In this document: positions 50,451 through 56,028 of the stretch, piece by piece
How positions within the stretch are numbered: the first letter of the stretch is position 1
How the letters are laid out: each line of letters opens with the position of its first letter
DNA from: Microbacterium sp. H83
GTDB taxonomy: Bacteria > Actinomycetota > Actinomycetes > Actinomycetales > Microbacteriaceae
Direction: 5' to 3'
NCBI RefSeq assembly: GCF_001650405.1
Contig: NZ_LWCU01000005.1
Location: 1 to 64,000, forward strand
DNA: 64,000 nt
The notes under the pieces: generated by a model
What the model saw: the letters and a program-made list of their open reading frames with translations, nothing else
Told to the model about the DNA's origin: nothing
The model's database searches: none
Position numbers and translations under genes: made by a program

Positions 50451-50489
50451 GGACTGAGCGCTTCGAAACGCGCCGGGCGAACTCCTTAT

Positions 50490-50521
50490 GGGGATGCCGC
50501 GACCCCTCTCGCGACATCCCC
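50490..50521. terminator. Hairpin between convergent deoR and CHAT genes
   Basis: GGGGATGCCGCGA (50490-50502) pairs with TCGCGACATCCCC (50509-50521), one mismatch, 6-nt loop. It lies between the ends of two convergent operons and can serve both. The remaining gap to 50686 shows no other feature. Confidence 0.65.
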
Positions 50522-50686
50522 GGAGCAGATGGTGTCCGTCGTGCCTCACACTCCCCAGTGCACGAGGCTTTCCCCAGAATCCGACTGCGCCTCCCTCGCG
50601 CTTCGTCACCGAAGCCCTCCGCATGGCACCTTCTGCAGATAAGGAGCACGGTGCCGATGGTCTGATACACCGACTGGAGAAAAGTG

Positions 50687-53119
50687 TCAGAATCCGCTGC
50701 CGTGGCAGTGGAACGGCGCGCGAAGACCGGTCGAGTCGGATGCCGCGGCGAGGGCGAGCGCGGGAGCGGCCCCCTTCGCGAGCTCGTCGTGCACCGCGCC
50801 GAGCAGCTCGCACGCGACGTCGTCGGGCACCACGACGGGAGCGGCGATGACGCACCGCGTGCCGGCGTGCAGCCAGACCCTGGTCATGCCGAGAGCCTCC
50901 TCGCCCCAGCGCACCGACGACCGGCCGAGCTCGCAGGCCGAGAGCACGACGGTCTCGGGGGCGTGCGGGATCAGGTCGACGTCGTAGCCGAAGAGCGTTC
51001 CGTCGACGAGCTCGAATCCGGAGAACAGCGGGTTGTCGACGGCGTGCCGTCCGTGGGCGGCGATGTGCAGCACGTCGACCCGTTCGGCGAGCTCCGTGAC
51101 GGCGGACACACGGGCGGATCCGCCGACGAGGACCTCGGCGTCGCTCCACGCGGCGGCCGCGGTGCGCACCTCCTCCTCGGCCCTGGCCACGCGTGGCCCC
51201 GCGGCGAACCCGGCGGTGCGCGGCGACCGGCCCGCACGCGCATCGCGATCGGCGAGCCACCGGGAGACGGAGGTCGCGAGTGTGAACGGCGTGCGGGCCA
51301 TGCCGGGGAGCATGGCCCACGGGATCCCGGCGAGGATGCCGGGGATGGTGAGCACGAGGCGGCTCGCGTCGCCTGCCGCGGCGCGGACGGGGGCGAGCAG
51401 GGCGTCGTCGATCGAGGTCAGCCGGTCGTCGAGCGAGCGGGCGACGACCCGGGCCATGGGACCGCCGTGTGTGAGCGCGGCGACGTCGAGGTCGGCGCGG
51501 AGGCCGTCGAGGGCGGCCTCGACCCGCGGCCACGACAGCGTCACGATCGACGAGCCGGATGCCGTGACGACGACGCACAGCAGCTCGGCGCGCGTGTAGA
51601 CGTAGGCGAGCACCGCGGTGTCCGCATCGAGGCGCGAGGCGGCGTCCCGCAGATCCACGCGTCCGCGATTGCCGCCGGCACCGGTCGACGACCACTGCCG
51701 CTCGCGCACCCGGTCGCGCAGCTCGCGCACCCGTGGATCGGTCGTCCAGTCCGAGCCCGCGAGGTCGGCGCGCAGCATCCGCAGCTCGGCGAGGTCGGCG
51801 GCGAGGTCGTCGTCGGGCGGAGGGCGCACCGGCGCGACCTGCTGACTCAGGTGGCGGGCGCGTTCCGACCACTCGAACATCACCTCGGGGTCGCGCGACC
51901 GTGCCGCCGCGCGCAGACCGGCGAACATCAGCTCCGTGCCGTGCATCGCGACGGACGCCTGCAGGTCGAGCGCGCCGAACGACTGCTGCCAGGAGGTGAG
52001 CAGGTCCAGCCCCTCGGCGGCGGCGCGGCGGGCCTCGCCATCCCTGCCGGCCGCGGCCGCCCGGAGCGCGCGCACCTCGTGGGCGCGCAGGCGCAGCGGC
52101 GTCGGGGCGTCGGCGGTGAGCCGCGGCATCCGTCCGCCGTCGGCGAGCCGGGCGGTCAGCGTGAGCGCCGCGGCCTCGGTGCGGAAGCCGCCGGCGGTGA
52201 GCGCACGCGCGGTGCGGCGGAGCGCCTCGGCGTCCTGCGGCGCCTGCGGTCGGGCGAGCGCCCTGGCCTCGAGGCGGACGGCCTCGGAGCGTGCGGCCCA
52301 GCCGTCGCTGCCGAGGTCCGCGAACCGGCGGGACGCGGTCGCCGCCGCCCGTTCGGCCGCCCGAGGATCATGGCGCAGCAGAGAGCGGGCGAGGTGGAAC
52401 TCGGCCTCGCCGCGCGCCTGGCGCATGCGCTGTGCGCCGAACTGCACGGCGACGGCGCCGAGGAGCTCCTCCGCCTCGGTCGAGAGCCCGGCGTCGCGCA
52501 GCACCTCGGCCCGATCGAGGTCGCTGATCGCGGCGGCGAGGTCGCTCGAGGCCGCGAGGATCGGTCGGGACCCGGTCATGAGGGCCAGGGCCGTGACGAG
52601 GTCGCCGGCGAGCAGCGCGGCGTACCCGAGGTTGTGGCGCGCCTCGGCGAGGGGCTCCTGCTGGCCGTGCGCCTCGAACGCGGCGATGGCACGCTCGAGG
52701 TCGGTGCGGCAGTCGTCGAGGAGGTGCCGCTGCATGCTCACGATCGACCGGCTCATCAGGAGGTTGGCCTGTTCGACCGAGCCCTCCTCGAGGGCGTCGA
52801 TGGCCGACGAGAGGTGCTCGTCGGCCTCGTGGAGACGGCCGCCGTGCATGAGCAGCGTTCCCAGCTGTCCGTGGAGGATCGCGAGGGTCTCGCCGCTCAG
52901 GCCGGGGCGCGCGAGGGCGCTGCGGGACAGTCGTTCGGCCTCGGCGGGCTCACCCGTCTGGGCCAGCACGTACGAGAGGGTGCCGTCGATGCGTGCGCGG
53001 AGGTCGTCGTCGTCCGTGCGGGCGGCCGCCGACGCGAGGGCGCGCCGCGCCTGCGCGAACCGCCGCGAGTTGGCCGCTTCGACACCGCGCCGATGCAGCT
53101 CGCGCGCAGACAGGGGCAT
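50687..53119 (-). CDS. TPR-CHAT protein (caspase-like protease)
   Basis: An 810-aa cytoplasmic protein. Residues 1-about 400 are Ala/Leu/Arg-rich helical TPR-type repeats; the C-terminal about 300 residues are a CHAT (caspase HetF-associated with TPR) domain with the catalytic dyad His689 (VDVLHIAAHG) and Cys729 (VVLSACELG) both intact. CHAT proteases cleave a specific partner on activation, as in TPR-CHAT/Csx29 that is switched on by type III-E CRISPR. Here it ends an operon with a subtilase, a small unknown protein and a sigma factor; 65 bp separate it from the subtilase gene. No CRISPR or gasdermin gene is nearby. Confidence 0.88.
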   Translation of the reverse strand: MPLSARELHRRGVEAANSRRFAQARRALASAAARTDDDDLRARIDGTLSYVLAQTGEPAEAERLSRSALARPGLSGETLAILHGQLGTLLMHGGRLHEADEHLSSAIDALEEGSVEQANLLMSRSIVSMQRHLLDDCRTDLERAIAAFEAHGQQEPLAEARHNLGYAALLAGDLVTALALMTGSRPILAASSDLAAAISDLDRAEVLRDAGLSTEAEELLGAVAVQFGAQRMRQARGEAEFHLARSLLRHDPRAAERAAATASRRFADLGSDGWAARSEAVRLEARALARPQAPQDAEALRRTARALTAGGFRTEAAALTLTARLADGGRMPRLTADAPTPLRLRAHEVRALRAAAAGRDGEARRAAAEGLDLLTSWQQSFGALDLQASVAMHGTELMFAGLRAAARSRDPEVMFEWSERARHLSQQVAPVRPPPDDDLAADLAELRMLRADLAGSDWTTDPRVRELRDRVRERQWSSTGAGGNRGRVDLRDAASRLDADTAVLAYVYTRAELLCVVVTASGSSIVTLSWPRVEAALDGLRADLDVAALTHGGPMARVVARSLDDRLTSIDDALLAPVRAAAGDASRLVLTIPGILAGIPWAMLPGMARTPFTLATSVSRWLADRDARAGRSPRTAGFAAGPRVARAEEEVRTAAAAWSDAEVLVGGSARVSAVTELAERVDVLHIAAHGRHAVDNPLFSGFELVDGTLFGYDVDLIPHAPETVVLSACELGRSSVRWGEEALGMTRVWLHAGTRCVIAAPVVVPDDVACELLGAVHDELAKGAAPALALAAASDSTGLRAPFHCHGSGF

Positions 53120-53184
53120 CCACCCAGAATGCCGGGATGCGGCGCGGGAGGGAAGCCCGGCATCCGATCGGCCGTCTCCCGCCG

Positions 53185-54750
53185 CTAGCCGACCCGCGGG
53201 GTGGGCAGCGTCGCCAGCACGGCGGCGACCGCCTTGGCGACGCCCCCCGGTGCCAGGCCGCTCGTCGGAACCGCGCCCAGCTGAGCGGCGATGCGCCCGG
53301 CGACGAAGGGCGCCGAGAACGAGGTGCCGCTCCACGTCGCGAATCCGCCCCGGTAGTCGTCGGGGTCGATCGTCTCCCGATGCAGCCCGTCGACGTCGGC
53401 CCGCGTCGCGGCCTGTTCGCCGCCGACGAATGCCGGCGAGGTGCTGAGCACGGCGGCGCCCGGCGCGAAGACCCGCACCCAGGGACCGACGTTCGAGAAC
53501 AGGGCGACGGAGTGCCCCGAGGGGTTCAGGGCGCCGACCGAGACGAGCGGGGCGTGGCGGTCGGCGGGGATGCCGTTGTCCGCCCCGGGCCAGGGCCAGA
53601 GCGAGGCGGGGAACGAGGGCCGGTCGATCGCGTCGTTGCCCGCCGAGCAGACCACGACGCAGCCCAGCTCCCGCGCCTTCGTGAGGATCGCCTCGAGCGT
53701 GCGACTGAAGAATCCGTCCTCGGGGGTCTCGTGGTAGTACCCGAGCGAGAGGTTGAGCACGTCGATCGGGTGGCCGGTCTTCGGGTCCTCCCGATGGCGA
53801 CGCAGGAGCTCGACCACCTGCGCGACCGTGAGCAGGAACGTGCTCTCGTCGATCACGCCCAGCGCCCCCGCCATCCGGATCGACAGGATGTCGGCATCCG
53901 GGGCCGTCTGTCGGATGATGCCCGCGATGAACGTCCCGTGCCCGGCGACCGCGTCGATCTCCCCGTCGAGCTGCCCGTACAGATCGGGGTACTTCTCGGG
54001 GTCGGCATCGTCGGTGAGCCCGATCGGCATGCCGTCGATCTCGGCGTGGCGCGTGACGACGTCGTCGGGGAGCCACTCGTGCACCCCGCATCCGGTGTCG
54101 AGCACCGCCACGACCGGCCGCCGGCCGCGCTTCGGAGCCGCACCCCGCAGCGGAGCGGGTCCCACCCAGGTCACGGGCTGCCGGGCTCCGCGTCCCGGCT
54201 CGAGGTAGTCGTCGCTGCCTCCGGCCCCGGCGCCGCGCACCGGGTTGGTGCGGCTGAACGGGTTGGTGCGGCTGAAGGGGTTCGTACGGCTGAACGGATT
54301 GAGACCCACCGGGTCGATCGACAGCACGTGCTCGAGGCTCGTCCGCGGCATCGTGCTGCGGGTGCTGCGACGCGCGCGCTGCAGCACGCGCCAGGCGTCG
54401 GGCGGCACCGGAGATTCGCCGCGTTCAGGGGCGTCGGGGGTGGTGAGGTGCGCGCGCAGGAACCCGGGGACGCCCGGAAGCAGCGGGCCGGCCGCGAGGC
54501 GGGATTCCGGCGACTCGATGTCGAGGCTCCAGCCGAAGGACGCGGCGGCCTCGCGGAGCGCGAGGATCTCCCGGTCATAGCCCTCGTCGTCGCTGTCGCG
54601 GTCGTCGGTGATCAGGAGTCGCTGCGGCAGATACGCGGTCGGGAACGCACGGATGCCGTCGACCGGCTCGACCGTCGGATCGAGTGCGGTTCCTCGCCGG
54701 ATCGACCCCTCTGCGCGATCCTGCCAGCTCCATCCCCTGGGCTGCTCCAT
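53185..54750 (-). CDS. S8 family serine peptidase (subtilase) without signal peptide
   Basis: A 521-aa subtilase. Catalytic triad Asp218 (VAVLDTGCG), His271 (GHGTFIAG) and Ser477 (GTSFSAPF), oxyanion Asn372. No signal peptide or C-terminal membrane helix, so it acts in the cytoplasm, unlike mycosins. Residues 1-200 are an unusual extension holding a linker of NPFSRT units at 151-168. The extension may work as inhibitory prodomain or docking site. Between a small unknown protein and a CHAT protease in one operon; GAGGAGAGGA lies before the ATG, downstream of an array of small hairpins. Confidence 0.9.
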   Translation of the reverse strand: MEQPRGWSWQDRAEGSIRRGTALDPTVEPVDGIRAFPTAYLPQRLLITDDRDSDDEGYDREILALREAAASFGWSLDIESPESRLAAGPLLPGVPGFLRAHLTTPDAPERGESPVPPDAWRVLQRARRSTRSTMPRTSLEHVLSIDPVGLNPFSRTNPFSRTNPFSRTNPVRGAGAGGSDDYLEPGRGARQPVTWVGPAPLRGAAPKRGRRPVVAVLDTGCGVHEWLPDDVVTRHAEIDGMPIGLTDDADPEKYPDLYGQLDGEIDAVAGHGTFIAGIIRQTAPDADILSIRMAGALGVIDESTFLLTVAQVVELLRRHREDPKTGHPIDVLNLSLGYYHETPEDGFFSRTLEAILTKARELGCVVVCSAGNDAIDRPSFPASLWPWPGADNGIPADRHAPLVSVGALNPSGHSVALFSNVGPWVRVFAPGAAVLSTSPAFVGGEQAATRADVDGLHRETIDPDDYRGGFATWSGTSFSAPFVAGRIAAQLGAVPTSGLAPGGVAKAVAAVLATLPTPRVG

Positions 54751-54766
54751 CGTCGGTCCTCTCCTC

Positions 54767-54848
54767 GCGGGCGGACCCGCGTCCTGTGCGGGCGGACCCG
54801 CGTCCTGTGCGGGGCGTCCCGCGGTGTGTGCGGGCGGACCCGCGGTGG
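54767..54848 (-). repeat. Tandem array of 19-21 bp GC hairpins
   Basis: Four tandem units start at 54767, 54788, 54109+700 (54809) and 54830; the first two are identical 21-mers beginning GCGGGCGGACCCGC, each able to form a small GCGGG/CCCGC hairpin. The array fills the gap between the small unknown gene and the subtilase start, immediately upstream of its ribosome site. Confidence 0.8.
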
Positions 54849-54849
54849 A

Positions 54850-55311
54850 TCACAACTCGAACTGCGGCGTCGTCAGGATGCGGTCCTCATCGCCCACGGT
54901 GGTGGCGAGGCGCACGAGCGTGAGCCCGTGAGGAACGTCGTCGAACACGAACCGACCCGTCTCGCTCGACGTCGTCGATCGCGTGCGCTCCCCCTGCACG
55001 AGGTCGATCACGGCGGCGCTCGTGTCGACCCAGCCGTCGACGCGATGGCGACCTCCGGCCGTCTGCGTGACGTGCAGCAGGATGCTGGTCGTGCCGTCGC
55101 TGAACTGGAGGGTCAACGCGTCCGCTTCGCCGCGCACCAGGCCGAGCGGCTGCTCGACGAGCGTCAGCAGGGCGTATTCCTGGGAGAGCCCTTCGGTCGC
55201 GACGGCCGCGATCATGCGGTCGATCAGCGTGGCCGGCACCGGGTCGACGTCGCGCCACAGCGATCGAAGCTGTGCGAACAGGGCGGCATCCTCGCGGTCG
55301 TGCGCGCTCAT
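54850..55311 (-). CDS. Unknown small protein of the sigma/subtilase/CHAT operon
   Basis: A 153-aa protein. The first 45 residues are helical (LFAQLRSLWRDVDPVPATLIDRMIAAVATE), like the N-terminal part of regulators paired with sigma factors; the rest is beta-rich (LTLQFSDGTTSILLHV, HRVDGWVDTSAAVIDLV, GRFVFDDVPHGLTLVRLAT), which looks like a transthyretin/carboxypeptidase-regulatory-like beta sandwich. No membrane segment or zinc motif, so it is not a typical anti-sigma factor. ATGA overlap with the sigma gene implies stoichiometric production. Confidence 0.8.
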   Translation of the reverse strand: MSAHDREDAALFAQLRSLWRDVDPVPATLIDRMIAAVATEGLSQEYALLTLVEQPLGLVRGEADALTLQFSDGTTSILLHVTQTAGGRHRVDGWVDTSAAVIDLVQGERTRSTTSSETGRFVFDDVPHGLTLVRLATTVGDEDRILTTPQFEL

Positions 55312-55934
55312 GATGTTCCCTCCGTCCGGGATGTCGGCGCGTCGAGGAGCGCACGGAGCTTCGCGAGGCAGCGCTGTCTGGTGGGTCCGATGCTCCCCAC
55401 GGGCATGGCGAGATCCGCGGCGAGACGGGCGTAGTCCGGTCGCTCCTCGAACGCGATCACGCGCAGCAGTCGCTGGCAGCGTTCGGGAAGAAGCGTCACG
55501 GCCGACCACAGGCGCCGCTGCTCGTCGCGGACCGCCGCATGATGCTCGGCCGACTCCTGTTCGGGGAGGAGCGTGTCGAGAGCATCCGTCTCGGTCGTGT
55601 CGACCCGGTTCTGCGCCTTGCTCGCGCGCCAGGCCTCGCGCCGTGCCGTCGTGGTCAGCCACGCCGAGACGGCGCGCGGCTCGCTGATCGACCGCTGTCC
55701 GCGGACGAGCTGCAGCCACGCGGTCTGGATGACGTCCTCTGTCAGTGTGCGGTCGAGGCCGTACGCGCGAACGACGTGCCAGAGCACAGGCGTCATCAGC
55801 CGCACGAGGTCGTCCATCGCGCGGCTGTCGCCGTCCCGCCATGCGTCGAAGAGAGCGGCGGCGCGTCTCCAGCGAGCCGCGCCGTCATCCGGTGCAGGAT
55901 CGAGAGCGGCGCCGCCGGGTGCGCCGTCGATCAT
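55308..55934 (-). CDS. ECF-like sigma-70 family RNA polymerase sigma factor
   Basis: A 208-aa sigma factor with region 2 (about 35-100; LTEDVIQTAWLQLVRG...PRAVSAWLTTTARREAWR) and region 4 (about 135-195; LPERCQRLLRVIAFEERPDYARLAADLAMPVGSIGPTRQRCLAKLRALL). First gene of the operon with the small unknown protein, the subtilase and the CHAT protease. It may control this operon or a wider response. I start at the ATG 55934 (GGGAC just upstream); ATG 55943 or GTG/ATG further up to 55988 would add a short hydrophobic leader. Confidence 0.88.
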   Translation of the reverse strand: MIDGAPGGAALDPAPDDGAARWRRAAALFDAWRDGDSRAMDDLVRLMTPVLWHVVRAYGLDRTLTEDVIQTAWLQLVRGQRSISEPRAVSAWLTTTARREAWRASKAQNRVDTTETDALDTLLPEQESAEHHAAVRDEQRRLWSAVTLLPERCQRLLRVIAFEERPDYARLAADLAMPVGSIGPTRQRCLAKLRALLDAPTSRTEGTS

Positions 55935-56028
55935 GAGTCCCATTGTGATCACACAGATCAGGAGCACGGCAAGAGCCGCGTGATACATGGACGCGGTCGA
56001 TCTGTCAGACGGGCGTTAGCGTGGAGGA

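Follow-up and report, generated by a model that had tools for sequence, protein, structure and literature searches.

The locus considered here lies in a 64,000-nucleotide stretch of Microbacterium sp. H83 DNA (assembly GCF_001650405.1, contig NZ_LWCU01000005.1, positions 1 to 64,000; hereafter, the window), in which four genes on the minus strand encode an extracytoplasmic function (ECF)-type sigma factor (SIG), a small protein (MID), a subtilase (S8), and a tetratricopeptide repeat (TPR)-CHAT protease (CHAT). SIG (55308-55934, 208 residues) matches Sigma70_r2 (E 2e-8) and NCBIfam sigma70-ECF (63.6 bits against a cut-off of 42.9), S8 (53185-54750, 521 residues) matches Peptidase_S8 (E 2.9e-25), and CHAT (50687-53119, 810 residues) matches the CHAT family (E 4.6e-28), its profile also matching TPR proteins in the PDB over positions 4 to about 350, including a Rap-type phosphatase (E 4.6e-5). 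SIG and MID overlap by 4 nt, and gaps of 99 and 65 nt separate MID from S8 and S8 from CHAT, respectively. This arrangement on one strand is as given in a preliminary description of the same DNA, and the catalytic residues named there proved to be both present and conserved: the S8 triad (Asp218, His271, Ser477) is invariant in 65 aligned subtilases, and the CHAT dyad (His689/Cys729) is kept in 114 of 115 aligned proteins, the exception being a fragment that is gapped there. No N-terminal hydrophobic stretch or signal peptide is apparent in S8, as judged by eye and from its structure model, and its closest relatives among the matches listed are from Microbacterium. In the gap between MID and S8 (window 54770-54850), GC-rich tandem repeats, imperfect and each about 20-25 bp long, were noted by eye.

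MID (54850-55311, 153 residues) gave a CarboxypepD_reg match of 16.2 bits, under that family's cut-off of 32.3. Its model (predicted local distance difference test score, pLDDT, 82.7; predicted template modeling score, pTM, 0.59) comprises two N-terminal helices and a beta-sandwich, for which no confident fold match was obtained (best E 0.027); the best structure comparisons (Z 8.9 and 8.3) are both with CBM56 beta-sandwich domains and cover residues 63-153 only, and the best E of the MID profile against the PDB is 0.015.

By ECF family and genetic context, the operon is probably of the ECF54 type, a neighborhood that is already known: a 2022 review gives subtilase, CHAT, and carboxypeptidase-domain proteins as the context of this sigma group and cites proposals that ECF54 is controlled by proteolysis (Huang 2015 and Casas-Pastor 2021, as cited in PMC8999054). 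Its passages on ECF54 mention neither a trigger nor an output, nor an array, promoter, or RNA (PMC8999054). Thus, the preliminary statement that the gene set has no described function stands in part, since the context is published and proteolytic control has been proposed, while our search of the literature on the gene set and its parts found no experiment on the neighborhood and nothing on the array, promoter, or RNA. The preliminary description did not contain a peptide array in S8, two promoter-like elements, or an RNA 3' of CHAT; as far as the searchable literature shows, the array, its covariation with CHAT, and the proposed RNA output are new.

A peptide array at the subtilase processing junction

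In the AlphaFold2 model of S8 (pLDDT 88.5, pTM 0.92), residues 38-144 fold into a prodomain of beta-alpha-beta-beta-alpha-beta topology, and residues 151-171 are the sole stretch of at least three residues with a pLDDT below 50. Comparison of model residues 42-521 by VIA-align matched 3wiu (listed as Pro-S324A/L349A; Z 26.3, root-mean-square deviation 4.4, 323 aligned), unprocessed pro-subtilisin E (3whi, Z 26.2), and pro-Tk-subtilisin (2e1p, Z 26.1), with residue 1 of mature subtilisin mapping near S8 residues 194-196. A subtilisin-type prodomain, the catalytic fold, and the Asp/His/Ser triad are all present in the model and alignment, and S8 is predicted to be made as a zymogen with a prodomain of this type.

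S8 of the window carries three tandem copies of NPFSRT (54247-54300, minus strand; residues 151-168) at the junction of its prodomain and catalytic domain, and the match to pro-subtilisins therefore places this array within the linker at which subtilisin zymogens undergo processing. No match to the NPFSRT pattern other than these three units occurs in the genome, which rules out a second protein with the same motif as the target. The units of other species include NPFTRT, NPYGST, NPFKA, HPFWGG, HPLYDG, NPAYQG, GYGDGV, PYWDPV, and GWSDGI, among others, and the position of the array is the same across the S8 listings that we read.

Array statistics were collected from 94 arrays carried by non-identical S8 proteins, in which counts of unit pairs are not independent of one another. 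The period is six residues in 77 arrays, units range from 4 to 9 residues (one unit scored as 10 consists of two units of 5), and the number of copies lies between about 2 and 12. At the protein level, 69 arrays are perfect over their full units, and all 69 of these have synonymous differences between units; the pooled crude ratio of nonsynonymous to synonymous change between units is about 0.08. There are 74 distinct unit strings in the 94 arrays, or 61 units in the 80 loci used for the covariation analysis once rotations are merged. A repeat score of at least 10 was reached by 93 of 115 S8 N-terminal parts, as against none of the 115 C-terminal parts and none of 120 shuffles, and among the other proteins by 0/127 SIG, 0/129 MID, and 1/122 CHAT sequences. 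These comparisons indicate that the units are kept alike within a gene through selection, yet are divergent between species.

Distribution of the gene set

The preliminary description had proposed a search of actinobacterial genomes for the same set, and the four genes were indeed found together: all four occur in 74 of 80 actinobacterial loci gathered through S8 (75 of 81 including the window). These 80 named loci are the best 80 of at least 413 confirmed matches, and the fraction therefore applies to near relatives. Counted as complete were L118, with a CHAT stub at a contig end, and L135, L142, L178, and L187, with partial CHAT matches. The six loci short of the full set are L134 and L148 (S8 and CHAT only), L155 (a 3-kb contig), L157 (S8 only, with the contig ending behind it), and L159 and L165, in which CHAT is not in the stretch, yet is present elsewhere in each genome.

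The set was also approached through MID, which was matched in 24 of 58 genomes, including its own; 20 of the 23 loci fetched in this way from relatives carry all four genes (counting as complete L040, with CHAT 4 kb off and cut by the end of the stretch), the exceptions being L043 without S8, L046 without S8 and CHAT, and L048 on a 3-kb contig. Across 396 sampled Actinomycetota genomes, MID matches 34, its own included, some of them partially. Gene order and strand vary among loci, and the four genes are clustered beyond chance. In 12 genomes in which CHAT or S8 is missing beside SIG and MID, the CHAT gene is present in 11, and in two of these (G032 and G237) it sits at the SIG-MID locus itself. 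Ten genomes, G032 among them, were searched for S8: five (G140, G172, G370, G098, and G216) have an S8 relative only a few kb away from CHAT, three have S8 matches elsewhere, and no S8 match was found in G032 and G439. The gene set is spread across Actinomycetota.

MID can be multiplied together with the protease modules, with three MID, two S8, two CHAT, and one SIG in L081/L182 (the same contig, judging by length). Such multiplied modules (two S8, two CHAT, two to three MID, and one SIG) were seen in L081:4404-16400/L182, from a Nitriliruptorales metagenome-assembled genome, and in L082/L172 (likewise one contig by length), from Salsipaludibacter albus, where the paired S8 copies differ in their unit (HPLYDG and GPFTSG in L081; HPMYDG and GPFTSG in L082). 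At L040:8437-12560, about 4 kb of other open reading frames (ORFs) separates S8 from CHAT, and L043 (G032) is a natural S8-less variant in which the promoter pattern behind CHAT, described below, is retained.

Covariation of the array unit with CHAT

Covariation was assessed by partial rank correlation across the 80 loci in which a unit was detectable and every part was present, using permutations that are not tree-aware. Unit distance correlated most strongly with the TPR half of CHAT (partial r 0.356, null standard deviation 0.058), followed by the S8 N-terminal part (0.175), MID (0.124), the S8 catalytic domain (0.02), the CHAT protease half (-0.034), and SIG (-0.142). The TPR half is not the fastest-changing part, its median distance being 0.68 beside 0.73 for the S8 N-terminal part and 0.66 for MID. 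Its correlation held when one locus was kept per unit (61 loci; 0.334, p 0.002) and when the NPFxRT clade was left out (65 loci; 0.319, p 0.002). Over 38 disjoint nearest pairs, rho was 0.52 for TPR (p 0.0008) and 0.37 for the S8 N-terminal part, as compared to 0.05 for SIG, -0.16 for the CHAT protease half, and -0.24 for MID. In the window, MID lies about 0.55 kb from the array and CHAT about 1.1 kb; because MID is the nearer, linkage is a poor explanation of the TPR signal in the main gene order. The S8 windows that covary most strongly are at about residues 332-391, which cover strands that we take to form the substrate subsites in subtilisin. Taken together, these results suggest that unit changes track the CHAT TPR half better than SIG, MID, and, in most tests, the CHAT protease domain, and the covariation appears firmer for CHAT than for TPR alone.

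Promoter-like elements and a predicted structured RNA

Of 50 regions from the Microbacterium group that lie upstream of SIG, 44 contain the hexamer GTATCA (1.2 expected), and 39 aligned regions share TGTATCA followed about 16 nt on by CTC. The window holds two minus-strand copies of TGTATCA-N16-CTC, one upstream of SIG (element 1, 55962-55987) and one directly 3' of the CHAT stop codon (element 2, 50644-50669), both of which are presumably used by SIG. A total of 139 occurrences of TGTATCA-N15-17-CTC were counted in 132 dereplicated loci, of which 72 lie before SIG, MID, or S8, 45 behind CHAT (same strand, within 600 nt), 3 inside SIG, and 19 elsewhere. In the same loci, one occurrence each was found for the N25-27 and the reversed control, 0 and 1 for scrambled patterns, and 27 for N5-7, most of which fall on the same conserved sites.

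The N16 form was then scanned in 59 genomes of the genus, with G471, which has weak partial MID matches only, counted as lacking MID. The 29 genomes with MID contain 100 hits, of which 52 lie no more than 10 kb from MID, with at least one such hit in all 29 and at least two in 22, whereas the 30 genomes without MID contain 25 hits, or 0.83 each, like the reversed control (about 1.1). Hits away from MID in the genomes that carry it number 1.66 each, and a few further targets are therefore possible. Three further TGTATCA-N15/16-CTC sites in the Microbacterium sp. H83 genome (G000:C1:282631, G000:C2:46485, and G000:C24:7481) are about the number expected by chance (control 2).

Element 2 probably drives a small structured RNA, predicted at 50478-50643 (minus strand), with a GGGG-loop hairpin at about 50549-50560 and a terminator-like hairpin at about 50490-50521. 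Behind element 2, 58 GGGG-loop hairpins were counted in 45 loci, as compared to 9.8 in dinucleotide shuffles. For 15 close relatives, RNAalifold gave a consensus of 38 pairs that includes the GGGG-loop hairpin and the terminator-like stem; 13 pairs are changed on both sides in at least one sequence, although covariation contributes little to the energy (-1.58 of -51.07 kcal/mol). A search with our RNA model, R1, matched once in its own genome and, across 46 sources, recovered the RNA of L029 (E 9.7e-33), a locus outside the training set in which it lies 1.5 kb behind CHAT. In L038 (E 0.013), L136 (0.032), and L121 (0.049, partial), there are weak matches where the RNA would be expected, but they count for little, because matches off that place in L130, L146, and L127 and on the opposite strand of the window are at least as strong. 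In a set of 40 RNAs, pairing of the 5' end is stronger with the 3' segment of the same RNA (-18.6 kcal/mol) than with those of dissimilar RNAs (-16.2 kcal/mol, p 3e-4), but the value for shuffled 3' segments is -16.4 kcal/mol, and several loci show no such advantage.

No Rfam family matched in the window at gathering thresholds. A small ORF behind element 2 was ruled out by the lack of an ATG in 5 of 15 clade members (L028, L110, L111, L112, and L114), and pairing of the GGGG loops with 6C RNA by the lack of a 6C match in the genome. At L098:6984 (minus strand), where SIG and MID have no CHAT or S8 in their vicinity, inspection by eye showed the promoter pattern and a GGGGG-rich stretch, convergent to MID; the RNA may accordingly follow SIG-MID rather than CHAT.

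A proposed mechanism and its alternatives

The explanation that we favor as a whole, tentatively and at slightly less than an even chance, is an ECF54-type sigma operon under proteolytic control, in which the array is a ligand of the TPR domain and SIG provides both autoregulation and an RNA output. MID would hold SIG inactive; we infer that it is either a sigma-holding partner or a substrate. S8 would be a zymogen in which an array of identical short peptides links the prodomain to the catalytic domain; the covariation suggests that the TPR domain of CHAT recognizes this species-specific peptide, such that the two proteases would form one unit. Once this unit is activated, either CHAT or S8 itself would cleave the array, and MID would be destroyed by a protease, in analogy with the cleavage of Csx30 by Csx29 that frees CASP-sigma. 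The freed SIG would then transcribe its own operon and the GGGG-loop RNA from two copies of one promoter, and the RNA may carry part of the response. A coupled two-protease system with sigma output had already been proposed in the preliminary description, and this part of it gains from the linkage of the genes, the proximity of S8 to CHAT in half of the ten split genomes, the prodomain of the subtilase, and the covariation of array and TPR domain; that one protease matures the other is plausible.

Several observations weigh against this explanation. The array is absent, single, or degenerate in L100-L106, L173, L177, L184, and L186 despite the presence of all four genes, and is not visible in five S8 linkers from split genomes; therefore, it is not essential. 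In some S8 proteins, the copies are interspersed. The single-contig genome G032 (L043) has SIG, MID, and CHAT and no S8 match. MID retains a small partial correlation with the unit (0.098, p 0.028 in the 61 loci; 0.10, p 0.008 in the 65), the S8 catalytic domain equals or exceeds TPR in the 38 nearest pairs (rho 0.60), a signal that linkage within the gene could explain, and when disjoint pairs were drawn at random, a value of 0.213 was obtained for the CHAT protease half, as compared to 0.329 (TPR) and 0.316 (S8 catalytic domain). Where the gene order is S8-SIG-MID-CHAT (16 loci), the correlation is significant for the CHAT protease half (0.225, p 0.014) and not for TPR (0.113). An element behind CHAT is found in only 45 of 110 loci; of these 45, 11 lack a GGGG-loop hairpin in the minimum-energy fold and five lack TGGGG behind the element, three of the latter (L133, L151, and L171) having by eye an ORF-like start instead. 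Finally, R1 finds the RNA confidently only near its own clade.

The array might instead serve docking or activation only, by providing either multivalent docking or several redundant sites at which cleavage by CHAT frees S8 from its prodomain, with no free-peptide signal. We regard this as quite possible, if doubtful. The modeled position of the array, within a linker whose cutting would free the prodomain, is consistent with it, as is the covariation of the CHAT protease half in the 16 S8-first loci, and a variable cleavage site has precedent in Csx30, whose site is nonconserved among Craspase orthologs in the account consulted (PMC11106740). The lack of covariation of the CHAT protease half over the 80 loci and the nearest pairs argues the other way.

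Alternatively, the array may be a source of peptide second messengers: S8 would cut its own array, and the TPR domain would sense the free peptides and switch the caspase on, as RRNPPA receptors sense pheromones, within the cell or between siblings. In favor of this, the array is located at the modeled zymogen processing junction, the unit covaries with both the TPR half and the S8 catalytic domain, and the strongest S8 windows cover presumed substrate subsites. The units, mostly of six residues and within 4-9, are also of pheromone size, RRNPPA pheromones being described as 5-10 residues long, in propeptides that may likewise hold repeated copies (PMC11343458). However, no export signal was seen and no importer is among the four genes, and docking by the uncut array accounts for the same covariation; we consider this alternative rather unlikely. 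The complete system that it would imply, with a linker-encoded, species-private peptide, a TPR receptor, and a freed ECF sigma factor acting on its own operon and the RNA, seems to us unlikely.

Tandem repeats slip easily, and the array could be a neutral low-complexity linker produced by slippage, its covariation reflecting linkage or shared ancestry. The range of copy numbers, the absence of the array in some lineages, and the use of permutations that are not tree-aware are compatible with neutrality. In contrast, units differ at synonymous sites and rarely in protein, and MID, although nearer to the array than CHAT, gave a negative rho in the nearest pairs, and we judge this reading improbable.

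Least probable of all, and very unlikely in our estimate, is a triggered anti-phage or cell-death system with the two proteases as its killing arm: cleavage of Csx30 in the Csx30-Csx31-RpoE complex is said to lead to cellular suicide against phage (PMC11106740), but the nine neighboring ORFs include no defense genes (three lack a Pfam family, and the other six have metabolic, transport, or regulatory roles), PADLOC gave weak matches to the subtilase only (best 27.7 bits), and the plasmid collection gave three CHAT records, none over 80% of the query, and one for MID, in a chromosome-sized record of 11.85 Mb. The same data speak against a mobile or defense island, and leave the phage trigger and proximity to defense islands raised in the preliminary description unsupported.

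For the proteolytically controlled sigma operon that we prefer, the array would constitute a private peptide-receptor pair in each species that is swappable and assayable, and the conserved promoter and RNA offer a possible reporter of operon activity.

Comparison with known systems

The locus shares with the ECF54 group an ECF sigma factor with subtilase and CHAT neighbors; the third neighbor listed for the group, a carboxypeptidase-domain protein, has only a possible counterpart in MID, given the sub-threshold CarboxypepD_reg match above. IetAS defense was ruled out, S8 scoring 21.8 bits against an IteS/IetS cut-off of 900. The pro-subtilisins (pro-Tk-subtilisin and pro-subtilisin E) have the prodomain and catalytic fold of the S8 model in common with it (Z about 26); unlike them, S8 has a linker of about 50 residues at the point of processing, and this linker carries the array.

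In the type III-E CASP/Craspase system (Csx29, Csx30, and CASP-sigma), a TPR-CHAT protease, a partner protein, and an ECF sigma factor occur in one locus, as here, and the TPR-CHAT protease Csx29 cuts Csx30, an inhibitor of the ECF sigma factor (PMC10028731). The Csx29-like combination of TPR and CHAT with a His/Cys dyad is present in our locus, to which the subtilase with its peptide array is an addition. No cas families (Cas7-11/gRAMP) were found in a Pfam scan of the nine neighboring window ORFs, and no Csx30 entries are among the five PDB matches of the MID profile at E of 1 or below.

The RRNPPA systems likewise encode together a TPR protein and a short, repeated, lineage-specific peptide (PMC11343458). 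Their peptide derives from a separate secreted propeptide of 50-120 residues, whereas the peptide described here lies inside a 521-residue protease without a visible export signal, and the candidate receptor, unlike RRNPPA receptors, is a caspase-like protease. If the TPR-array pairing is true, TPR peptide recognition would extend from quorum sensing to the control of a caspase-like protease, and the pairing would suggest what activates other TPR-CHAT proteins.

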